From: Lutimaribacter saemankumensis
Lineage (GTDB): Bacteria > Pseudomonadota > Alphaproteobacteria > Rhodobacterales > Rhodobacteraceae
Assembly: GCF_900100005.1 (NCBI RefSeq)
Contig: NZ_FNEB01000003.1
Span: 124,001-188,000, forward strand
Reading direction: 5' to 3'
DNA length: 64,000 nucleotides
A program made the translations under genes and the position numbers. This document shows, piece by piece, positions 48,974-53,288 of the stretch. The notes under the pieces were generated by a model. It searched no databases, was not told where the DNA came from, and saw only the letters and a program-made list of their open reading frames with translations. Numbering within the stretch: position 1 is the first letter of the stretch; the number at the start of each line of letters is the position of its first letter.

Positions 48974-49102
48974 GCGATTGTGCCACAGCATGTGGCGGCC
49001 GCCTTGGACGGACACCCAAAGGATTGACCGGCCGCGCGTCTGATCCTAGCCTGCGATCATGTTTGTTCACCGGATGTCCGGTCAGTGCAGGGGGTTCCCG
49101 AT

Positions 49103-49387
49103 ATGAAGTTCAAGTCAGTTTTCACCGCCATCGCCATCACGTTGGCCGCCGCTGTTCCGGCTTCGGCCACCGAGGCCAAGACCTACCCGTATCACGCCAA
49201 GGAAAACCACTGCCCGAGCGGCCTGCAGCCAATCGTCATGGCGGGCGTGATCTGCTGCGGAACCCCCAACCAGCCGATGACCTATTCGCAGATGCAGGCG
49301 CATCCCGCGGGCTATCGCAAGACGGTCGAACGCAGCGGTCGCCGGATGGTGTGCCCGGCGGGTGAAAAGGGCTGTTTCTACCAGTAA
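49103..49387 (+). CDS. Small secreted cysteine-containing protein
   Basis: A 94-residue protein with a signal peptide (FTAIAITLAAAVPASA, cleavage near 22) and five Cys in the mature part (HCPSG, ICCGTP, VCPAGEKGC), suggesting disulfides in the periplasm or outside. I do not recognise the family. ATG 49103 is chosen at the signal peptide. Confidence 0.7.
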   Translation: MKFKSVFTAIAITLAAAVPASATEAKTYPYHAKENHCPSGLQPIVMAGVICCGTPNQPMTYSQMQAHPAGYRKTVERSGRRMVCPAGEKGCFYQ

Positions 49388-49396
49388 ACCGATCCA

Positions 49397-49430
49397 CGGG
49401 GGCCGTGCGTGCAACATGCGCACGCCCCGT
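49397..49430. terminator. Bidirectional terminator between a small secreted protein gene and csp
   Basis: Stem GGGG-C-CGTGCG (49399-49409) with CGCACG-CCCC (49419-49428) and loop TGCAACATG; one bulged base. T runs are short (GTTTCT on plus). Confidence 0.6.
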
Positions 49431-49447
49431 TTCTAACGATTTCCGGC

Positions 49448-49654
49448 TTAGATAAGCGTGAGGTCGCTCGCCATCATGCGGCCGTCGCGGCCCTCTTTCA
49501 GTTCGAACCCGACTTTCTGGTTGTCCGCCAGACCGGTCAGGCCCGAACGCTCGACGGCCGAAACGTGGACAAATACGTCCTTGCCGCCATCGTCAGGTGC
49601 AATGAACCCGTAACCTTTTGTGGTATTGAACCATTTCACGGTGCCAGTAGGCAT
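49448..49654 (-). CDS. Cold-shock domain protein
   Basis: A 68-residue single cold-shock domain with both RNA-binding motifs: KGYGFIAPD (RNP1) and DVFVHVSAV (RNP2). It binds single-stranded RNA/DNA and relaxes RNA structure. The start is preceded by AAGGAG, and a roughly 200-bp leader before it contains hairpins, as is usual for csp genes. Confidence 0.94.
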   Translation of the reverse strand: MPTGTVKWFNTTKGYGFIAPDDGGKDVFVHVSAVERSGLTGLADNQKVGFELKEGRDGRMMASDLTLI

Positions 49655-49862
49655 GTCCCGTGTCTCCTTCTACTTCTCAATCCTTCCCGGATATTCCGGG
49701 GTATGCATGCCGGTATTCAGGGGGCCGGCTTGGAAAAAAGCTGGGTCTGAAAGCCATTTTGCACCTGAAAGGATTGCAGCAGTTTTGTAAAACACAAGCA
49801 AAACATATCGGGCAGTGACGTAGAAAATCGGCGAAAACAGCCCGCTGAGAAAGGAACTCCAG
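49655..49862 (-). promoter_or_regulatory. Probable csp 5' leader with hairpin
   Basis: The 208 bp between csp and the divergent ArsC-like gene hold a perfect CCCGGA-TAT-TCCGGG hairpin (49686-49700) close to the csp start, plus AT-rich sequence (49775-49830) that could carry both promoters. Cold-shock mRNAs often have a structured leader. Confidence 0.5.
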
Positions 49863-50198: not shown

Positions 50199-50567
50199 AT
50201 GCGGAATGCGGCACTGGTTCTTGGCATCATCGGCGGACTGTTCGCGATGCTGGTCGGTTTTTTCAGCTACGGCTATACCGAGGCCGCGGCGCGCTATGCC
50301 GAGATCGAAGAGATCTTCGGCCCGATTGCCAACCGCGACCTGATACGCACCGTCAGTTTCGCCGCGCCGCTGCTGGCCATCGCAGGCGGGGCGATGGCCC
50401 GGGCGCGGGCCTTGTGGGGCGGGGTGCTGATGCTGGTGTCGGCGGCAGGCATGTACATTGCCTTTGGCTTCAACGTGTTCACGATGTTCCCGCTGGGCTT
50501 TTGCCTGCTGGGTGGGGTTCTGGCGATTGCGGCCGGGAAACCGGACGAGCCGAAGGCGCATTTCTGA
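50199..50567 (+). CDS. Small four-helix membrane protein
   Basis: A 122-residue membrane protein with four hydrophobic segments (LVLGIIGGLFAMLVGFF, VSFAAPLLAIAGGAMA, LWGGVLMLVSAAGMYIAF, FPLGFCLLGGVLAIAAG). DUF4064-like by length only. Its last 89 bp overlap the DoxX gene on the other strand. Confidence 0.65.
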   Translation: MRNAALVLGIIGGLFAMLVGFFSYGYTEAAARYAEIEEIFGPIANRDLIRTVSFAAPLLAIAGGAMARARALWGGVLMLVSAAGMYIAFGFNVFTMFPLGFCLLGGVLAIAAGKPDEPKAHF

Positions 50568-51102
50568 ACATCACCCGATCCAGCGAAAGCGCGCCTGCGC
50601 CCTTGATCGCACTGACCAGCAGAACGAACACCCAAAGTGCGCGTTGATCCAGGATCACGCCGTCGGGCATCCGGTCGAACCACGCGCCAAGGGTCGCGGC
50701 ATGCTCGATGCCGCCATGACCATAAAGATCGGTCAGGCTCTGGACCGTGATGAATCCGATCATCCCAAGTGCGGCGACACGGGTGAAAAGACCCAGCAAT
50801 AGCAAAGCGGGCAACAAGAATTCGGCCCAGGTGCCTGCCAGCACGACGATCCCGTGCCAAGGCGGCAATTGGCTGACGTCATAGCCAACCGCCTCGGTCG
50901 CGCGCGGGAAAATCTGGGCATAGGCGCCCACCGATGGCTGAAATATACCCAGCACGCCATCGCCCAGCTTTGTCAGGCCCGAGGCCCAGAAATAGGGCAG
51001 CAACACGGCCGCGAACACGAACCGCGCCAGCACGGGCAGCATCGCGTCGAGGCGTGACAGGGGCGATGTCAGGCGGTCGTAGAGGTTCAATAGCGAAGTC
51101 AT
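50479..51102 (-). CDS. bufD: DoxX-family membrane protein of the buf operon
   Basis: A 207-residue DoxX-type protein with about four membrane segments (FVFAAVLLPYFWASGLTKLGDG; IVVLAGTWAEFLLPALLLLGLFTRVAALGMIGF). Its Pro/Ser-rich C-terminal tail (SARPVSRPQSPEPHPAG) runs into the oppositely directed gene at 50199. Overlaps bufC by four bases, so it is the last gene of the bufABC unit. DoxX proteins in bufferin loci are thought to help with redox or membrane steps; that role is inferred. Confidence 0.78.
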   Translation of the reverse strand: MTSLLNLYDRLTSPLSRLDAMLPVLARFVFAAVLLPYFWASGLTKLGDGVLGIFQPSVGAYAQIFPRATEAVGYDVSQLPPWHGIVVLAGTWAEFLLPALLLLGLFTRVAALGMIGFITVQSLTDLYGHGGIEHAATLGAWFDRMPDGVILDQRALWVFVLLVSAIKGAGALSLDRVMFRNAPSARPVSRPQSPEPHPAGKSPAGTS

Positions 51103-51854
51103 GGCAAGTCCTCGGGTTGGCAAAGCGCGCCATGGCCCAGAAGCAGGCCGAGACTGGCGCCGGGGTCGAAATCGGGGGTGTCTTGCAGGGCCAGTTCCGT
51201 GGCGCGGCCCAACGGCGCGCCCGATTGCAGGGCCCGCAGAAAGGCAAAGCCGCCGGCAGGAAGGGCAACCGGTTCCGGGTCGAACCCCTGGCGCAGGACG
51301 GCGACGTCCTGGCCCGTGCCCGCGGGTTTGGGCGCGCCGTCGCGCATGGTGTAGGCCCAGATTTCCACGATCGGCCAGTCGCTGCGCAACAGCCGTACCG
51401 AAGGCGCAAGCGGCAGTCGCGTATCCTCCAGCCGTTCGGGCGGGATCGCGGCCAGCGCATCGGGGGTCAGCGGAACATGATCGGCAGCGTGGTAGCTGCC
51501 GCGCAACGCCAGTTCCAGCCGCGCCACATCCGGCAGATAAGGGACATGCGCCAGCGCCTCCATGCCTGCCAGGTAGCCGGGGAAAGCCTGGCCATATCCC
51601 ATCATCACCGGCGTGCGCGGTGGGTGCGCCACCGCAAAACCACGCGCCAGATGGCGGAAATTGCGTGATCCGATCAGCCGCGCGACGGCCGGAAACCCGG
51701 TTTCCATCGCCTCGATCAGCGACACCGCGACATTGTTGCGGTAGACGTCGAACCGCCGCCCGGCCGGGCGCCCCGCGCCGTCCGTGACCCCGTCGGGCAC
51801 GGGGCGGGCCGCATCGCGCAAGGCAGGCAGGAAATCGGCGATCAGCCCGGTCAT
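51099..51854 (-). CDS. bufC: DUF2063 bufferin partner protein BufC
   Basis: A 251-residue protein of the DUF2063/HvfC-BufC family: N-terminal domain ([30 protein letters not shown], residues about 33-62) and a C-terminal domain likely to hold the precursor for the modifying enzyme. Its start overlaps the bufB stop (ATGA). Family knowledge: BufC forms a complex with the MNIO enzyme BufB. Confidence 0.87.
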
Positions 51855-52702
51855 GCCGTCACCTGCGCAAGGGCCCTGCCGGCGCGCGCGGCCTCGGCCT
51901 CCAGAACGGGCCAGTCGGGCACGTCGGTGTCCCATTCGATCAGCACCGGGCGGGGGCCGCTTTTCGCCAGCACATGGTCCAGCAATGCCCAGACCGGGTC
52001 GGCCACTTCGGCGCCATGACTATCGATCAGCAGCGGCGCGCCATGATCGTCATGATCCTCGTCATGGCCGCCGAGATGGATTTCGCCGACCGCCTGCAGC
52101 GGGAAGGCATCGATAAAAGCGCGCGGGTCATACCCGAGGTTCATGGCCGACACGAACACGTTGTTCACGTCCAGCAGCAGCCCGCAGCCGGTCCGCCGCG
52201 CGATCTCGGCCAGGAACCCGGGTTCGTCCCAGGTGCTGTCGGCAAAGGCGAGGTAGGAGGACGGGTTTTCCAGCAGCATCCGCCGGCCCAGCACTTCCTG
52301 CACCTCGTCGATATGATCGCAGATGCGCGTCAGGGTCGCGTCGGTATAGGGCAGGGGAAGCAGGTCGTTGAAAAACGCGCCTTCATGCGTCGACCATGCA
52401 AGGTGTTCGGAAAAGCTGGCCGGGTTCAGCCAGTCGCACAGGTGGCGCAGCCGCGCCAGATGATCGGGGTCAAGCCGTCCCTCGCCCCCGATCGACAGAC
52501 CGACACCATGGACGGATACGGGAAACCGGTCTGAAAGATGGCGCAACTGCGCGATCGGGCGCCCGCCGGCGCCCATGTAGTTTTCGGCGTGAATTTCCAG
52601 CCAGCCGAGCGCACCTGGCGACTCCATGATCGCGGCATAATGCTGCGGCTTGTAGCCGACACCGGGTTTCGGGGGCAGGGGCGCGCGGGCGGAATCGAAC
52701 AT
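51851..52702 (-). CDS. bufB: MNIO-family (DUF692) RiPP-modifying enzyme BufB
   Basis: A 283-residue DUF692 protein, the multinuclear non-heme iron oxidase family that includes MbnB. The TIM-barrel iron ligands are visible: [51 protein letters not shown] and [11 protein letters not shown]. MNIOs oxidise Cys residues of a precursor peptide into heterocycles. Gene order bufA-bufB-bufC-DoxX and the Cys-containing precursor upstream fit a bufferin system. Confidence 0.92.
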
Positions 52703-52768
52703 CGGGACATCCTCTGGCAGGCAAGGCGGGATGGACGGCCGCAGCCGGCCATCCCTTGGGGCGCAGGC

Positions 52769-53059
52769 TCAGGTCTGGGGCAGGTCGCGGTCCAGCGGCT
52801 CCAGGCTGCCCATGCGGTCGCCCGGCAGGTCGATCTCGGCGCAGGTGCCCGCGTCGACCAGCGTCCAGGCATTGCCCTGGTAATCGACGGTCGAGGTGCC
52901 GGCGCAGGTCGTGCCGGGGCCAGCCGCGCAATCGTTCTGCCCGGCCAGGCTGACGCCATAGCATTTTTCCTTTTCCATCGCGCTTGCGGCGGTGCCGTGT
53001 GCGGCGATGGCGGTTGCGACGGCGCCCACGAGGGCTGCGGTTTTCAGGGTGGTCGACAT
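52769..53059 (-). CDS. bufA: Bufferin precursor BufA (DUF2282)
   Basis: A 96-residue secreted precursor of the DUF2282 type: signal peptide [20 protein letters not shown] (cleavage near 24-27), then four Cys at 33, 44, 52 and 73 in the family spacing ([22 protein letters not shown]). A 23-residue acidic tail after Cys73 ([20 protein letters not shown]) is longer than I expect for the family. The modified peptide is thought to bind copper in the periplasm. RBS GGGAGAG before ATG 53059. Confidence 0.87.
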
Positions 53060-53154
53060 GGGTTCTCTCCCTAACTGGGTTTCAATACAGGCCACCGATG
53101 CGGTGGTGTTGAAAGGCTGCCAGTCGGAGCACGTCACAGGCCACTCACAGGACC

Positions 53155-53188
53155 GTGCATCACGGTTGCGTCACGGGGCGTGATGCAC
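53155..53188. promoter_or_regulatory. 10-bp inverted repeat upstream of bufA
   Basis: GTGCATCACG (53155-53164) and CGTGATGCAC (53179-53188), perfectly complementary, 14-base spacer. It lies 96-129 bp upstream of the bufA start, so it may be an operator or a leader structure; no T run follows on either strand. Confidence 0.5.
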
Positions 53189-53236
53189 GTGAGAGAAGAA
53201 AATCGTTTGAAACCAAATAAATAATGCAAAACGCAT

Positions 53237-53270
53237 CGCGGCCCGCCGGTTTTGTTACCGACGGGCCGCG
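53237..53270 (-). terminator. Strong intrinsic terminator of thrS
   Basis: Stem of 13 pairs, CGCGGCCCGCCGG (53237-53249) and CCGACGGGCCGCG (53258-53270), with one G-T or mismatch, loop of 8. On the minus strand it is followed by ATGCGTTTTGC. It separates thrS from bufA. Confidence 0.85.
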
Positions 53271-53288
53271 ACAGAATGGCACAGTTTG

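Follow-up and report, generated by a model that had tools for sequence, protein, structure and literature searches.

A Buf1-type bufferin operon of a marine roseobacter and the conserved element upstream of it

The bufferin operon and its products

The window is the whole stretch of Lutimaribacter saemankumensis DNA that was analysed, 64,000 nucleotides in length. The best explanation, held as a whole with high confidence, is that this marine roseobacter has at positions 53059-50479, on the minus strand of the window, a complete bufferin operon of the Buf1 type, which is a kind of captophorin operon, with the gene order bufA-bufB-bufC-doxX (Table 1). A complete bufferin-type operon had been proposed in the first-pass annotation. 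Its gene order and coordinates are exact, and all four products exceed the Pfam gathering scores of their domains (DUF2282, MbnB_TglH_ChrH, DUF2063, and DoxX). The tight coupling through two ATGA overlaps, also described there, is confirmed by overlaps of 4 nt each at bufB/bufC and bufC/doxX, and bufA and bufB are separated by 66 nt. Chance is no serious alternative as the source of the four-gene match.

Table 1. Features of the operon and of its upstream region
Feature	Positions	Strand	Description	Support
bufA	52769..53059	-	DUF2282 (Buf1) bufferin precursor, 96 aa	PF10048 6.4e-25
bufB	51851..52702	-	MNIO bufferin maturase, 283 aa	PF05114 1.2e-103; NF050167 374.8 bits
bufC	51099..51854	-	DUF2063 + RRE-like MNIO partner (PME-type 1), 251 aa	PF09836 1.9e-23
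doxX	50479..51102	-	DoxX-family membrane protein, 207 aa	PF07681 3e-7, 31.3 bits (cut-off 23.6)
Conserved 34-bp promoter element	53141..53174	-	Putative double palindrome upstream of bufA	Conservation
-10-like hexamer	53114..53119	-	CAGCCT, degenerate	At the offset where relatives have TANNNT
thrS intrinsic terminator	53234..53273	-	Strong; separates thrS from buf	

The core of a bufferin cluster comprises genes for the precursor, the MNIO, a DUF2063 protein, and DoxX, and Buf1 precursors are DUF2282 proteins with four conserved cysteines, of which the central two are modified and the outer two are joined in a disulphide (MNIO landscape, PMC12452194). The window contains a four-Cys DUF2282 precursor, a BufB-family MNIO, a PME-type 1 partner, and a DoxX protein, the last being a frequent and not an obligatory member of the Buf1 core cluster. 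No second DUF2282 or MNIO locus was found in the genome, and the window locus is the sole one. The gene set is a further example of a very common copper-defence system and contains little that is new in its genes.

BufA: The precursor has cysteines at positions 33, 44, 52, and 73, as first reported. The family spacing claimed for them was borne out by comparison with DUF2282 proteins: the spacing 0/11/19/40 is exact in 53 of 60 family matches, and the remaining seven keep it with one more Cys in the matched stretch. Residues 1 to about 27 form a putative signal peptide: inspection by eye shows typical n, h, and c regions and an ASA site, and these are kept in the alignment. The acidic tail of 23 residues is real, but its suggested role as a special binding or targeting part was rejected, as there is no sign of additional metal binding or targeting. 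It has neither Cys nor His, and its C-terminal sequence GSLExLxRDLP is conserved throughout the clade and thus is not special to BufA. Endings of the RD(L/I/R)P type occur in 48 of the 60 family matches and a G/A-S/A/T-L motif in 54, and R82, G84, L89, R91, and D92 are invariant among 50 relatives. In a wider class sample, the GSL part is kept in 21/28 sequences and the RDLP part in 3/28. The AlphaFold model of BufA is of low confidence (pLDDT 53) and was not used.

BufB: The score against the curated NCBIfam bufferin-maturase model, 374.8 bits, lies over the cut-off of 310. The alignment comprises 80 rows, the window and 79 relatives, and the invariant residues are His65, His100, Glu145, Asp178, Asn181, His209, His213, Asp227, His229, Glu256, and Asp258. 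The His/Asp/Glu iron ligands assigned earlier to this MNIO fall at positions invariant in all 80 rows. The invariant motifs align with those of solved MNIO structures, including 3BWW and TglH. The family literature would place the iron ligands, together with the catalytic base, among these invariant positions. By motif, Asp258 is read as the probable counterpart of Asp249 of FonB (PMC13097082).

BufC and DoxX: BufC has no match in the PDB by sequence. Its structural model (pLDDT 94.7) matches the solved MNIO partners TglI (8hi7_A) and NGO1945 (3dee), and BufC is thus predicted to fold like these known partners. BufC and DoxX score below the cut-offs of the NCBIfam HvfC and HvfX models, which describe another captophorin branch.

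Genomic setting and upstream sequence

Of 198 genomes from the family, 140 contain DUF2282, as do 100 of 289 class-wide, and a bufferin operon is not unusual within the family. The operon sits at a conserved Rhodobacterales site between thrS and arsC-csp. Of 40 loci taken by position from genomes of the genus and family, 30 have thrS upstream; arsC and csp are usually downstream, and the window has the same order. Sigma and NrsF genes adjoin the operon at nine of these 40 loci (two Paracoccus plasmids; one also thrS-linked). The context tallies are based on single phmmer queries of stretches of about 8-13 kb, so that sigma or thrS genes lying farther away escape detection. Because a strong terminator ends thrS, buf is a transcription unit of its own.

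The locus L044 (G009:C18:50000-61000) has two bufA genes in tandem before a single bufB, and G102:C45:5470-6052 contains two DUF2282 matches about 290 bases apart. At L075 (G151:C1, 5563-6805), bufB is seemingly split over two frames with two partial phmmer hits, possibly through a frameshift or a sequencing error. In the window, positions 49085-49387 on the plus strand encode a small, apparently secreted protein with five cysteines and no Pfam or NCBIfam match.

Characterised alphaproteobacterial buf1 operons have an ECF sigma factor, a linked anti-sigma factor, and a GTAAC-N16-CGAA box, and the sigma-F site of Caulobacter is GTAACC-N16-CGAA (PMC3511200). The window operon has none of the control features of a sigma-F/NrsF-controlled buf1 operon: no sigma or anti-sigma gene (sigF/nrsF) lies beside it, no GTAACC-N16-CGAA box was found upstream of bufA, and NrsF was not found in the genome. 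The GTAAC-N16-CGAA box is present in most sigma-linked operons and absent from the window and most thrS-linked operons. Two thrS-linked operons without the 34-bp element or nearby sigma-F genes (L074 and L076, in G137 and G177) have a GTAACG-type box, and a sigma factor gene located elsewhere may serve them.

The conserved element upstream of bufA has the consensus.T.ACgc...cGTGA..CACGg.c..GTGA.Tgg. It can be read as a pair of palindromes, TSACG-N4-CGTGA and NCACG-N4-YGTGA, spaced 15 bp from centre to centre. All 41 element sites agree in four GTGA positions, and the remaining thrS-bufA spacer has diverged. In the discovery set of 61 upstream regions, 43 contain the element with a score over 20, whereas the highest score among 1220 shuffles was 13.0; the element is absent from the sigma-linked operons of that set. 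Of the 80 named genomes in the held-out set, 76 were used; the four dropped were two in which no bufA was read and two that contain training sites. Here the element is present in 55/62 thrS-linked sigma-less operons, in 2/10 operons linked to neither thrS nor sigma genes, and in 0/4 sigma-linked operons, while the sigma-F box occurs in 0/62 of the first group and 4/4 of the last; these counts are not phylogenetically independent, and both discovery and testing of the element drew mainly on Rhodobacterales. TANNNT starts 20 or 21 nt past the element in 31 of the 55 held-out sites, with at most one site at any other offset. No plain sigma-70 consensus promoter, including its -35 hexamer, was found upstream of bufA.

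The element is nearly confined to the region upstream of bufA. When 61 genomes were searched with a profile, strong matches (E < 0.001) were obtained in 20, each at the bufA locus, and the reading frames around ten loci with weak hits share no gene or regulator. Other targets were considered and rejected, as the best genome site with one mismatch lies inside an ABC-transporter reading frame. An RNA element was likewise rejected: the only Rfam match in the region is a sub-threshold cspA thermoregulator (49397-49703, minus strand; 26.9 bits, gathering score 78) that spans the csp gene and its leader. Low folding energy upstream of bufA was set aside, since the thrS terminator lies within the folded region. 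That the element is new is judged from the open-access literature searched, which contains nothing on a roseobacter regulator of DUF692 operons.

Proposed control and function

Transcription of buf would start from its own promoter below the thrS terminator. The pattern of the element suggests that it is most likely bound by an activator protein. Positioned on the double palindrome, immediately before the -35 region, this putative activator, and not sigma-F/NrsF, would switch on a housekeeping-type promoter. It is possible, though doubtful, that the site is instead bound by a repressor or by an unusual sigma factor, as the double palindrome lies near the -35 region and palindromes also suit repressors. 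However, the TANNNT hexamer 20-21 nt past the element and the lack of a consensus sigma-70 -35 suit an activated promoter, and an ECF promoter is not expected to take the form of a double palindrome.

The proposed chemistry follows that of characterised relatives. BufA would be made with a Sec signal peptide and bound by BufB-BufC in the cytoplasm, and BufB, as a multi-iron oxidase, would convert the central Cys44 and Cys52 into 5-thiooxazoles. The modified BufA would then be exported and cleaved, the Cys33-Cys73 disulphide would form, and the mature protein would bind copper in the periplasm. DoxX may have an accessory role at the membrane. The loss of 4 Da per modified Cys given in the first-pass annotation stands for each such residue, but it applies to the two central cysteines and not to all four. 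In all, a change of about -8 Da plus -2 Da is expected, because only the central cysteines are modified and Cys1 and Cys4 form a disulphide (PMC12452194).

It is improbable that the same genes have a natural ligand or stress other than copper, such as gold, mercury, chromate, cadmium, or oxidants. In favour of another ligand, the gold-induced gig operons are bufferin operons under a different name, and MerC fusions occur among bufferins (PMC12452194). The Caulobacter operons respond to dichromate and cadmium via sigma-F (PMC3511200), and the roseobacter buf promoter is unlike those studied. Against this, copper is bound by all characterised thiooxazole products of MNIO-PME1 pairs (PMC13097082). 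The inducer cannot be transferred from Caulobacter, because the operon of the roseobacter clade lacks the known sigma-F-type control. For the same reason, and contrary to the first-pass annotation, an operon unaffected by copper would not refute the bufferin assignment.

The counts come from related genomes with a syntenic locus and so are not independent, but a phylogenetic remnant without regulatory role is very improbable, given that the spacer has diverged around the four invariant GTGA positions, that the element scores 20-42 where shuffles reach at most 13.0, that the -10 offset is fixed, and that operons accompanied by sigma-F genes lack the element, even when they occupy this same site. 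A quick tree of BufB pairs two sigma-linked loci with element-bearing sisters: L046 with L222 (support 100) and L184 with L196 (support 94). All four are at the thrS site. Because sister operons at this site differ, the two control systems have been exchanged on more than one occasion, in one direction or the other. There is about an even chance that in roseobacters sigma-F/NrsF control has been exchanged at the same site, more than once, for a dedicated, previously undescribed activator on a double TCACG-N4-CGTGA-like operator. If true, bacteria would have a second means of sensing the stress to which bufferins respond.

Comparison with known systems

In most roseobacters examined, the operon occupies one fixed site without the regulator expected from the work on Caulobacter and Sinorhizobium. 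Induction through sigma-F is not to be assumed in marine roseobacters, and the defined 34-bp element and the -10 position are directly testable targets.

Caulobacter vibrioides: The sigma-F/NrsF bufferin-1 operon CC3254-CC3257 has the same four genes in the same order as the window (PMC3511200, Table 1; PMC12452194). In contrast, the window lacks linked sigma-F/NrsF genes and the GTAACC-N16-CGAA box and has another promoter element. Its BufA has a longer C-terminus (GSLExLxRDLP), and it has one locus compared to two in Caulobacter.

Sinorhizobium meliloti: SMb20530-20527 with rpoE7/ecfR7 is, like the window, an alphaproteobacterial DUF692/DUF2063 operon. It needs the ECF sigma factor RpoE7 and has a GTAAC..CGAA promoter (PMC6180224), whereas the roseobacter operon shows neither.

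EGKCG-type captophorins: In oxazolin (HvfABC), fontiphorin, and gonophorin, an MNIO and a PME-type 1 partner install 5-thiooxazole, and copper is bound (PMC13097082). The window precursor differs in that it is a four-Cys DUF2282 domain without EGKCG repeats, and the Hvf models score below cut-off.
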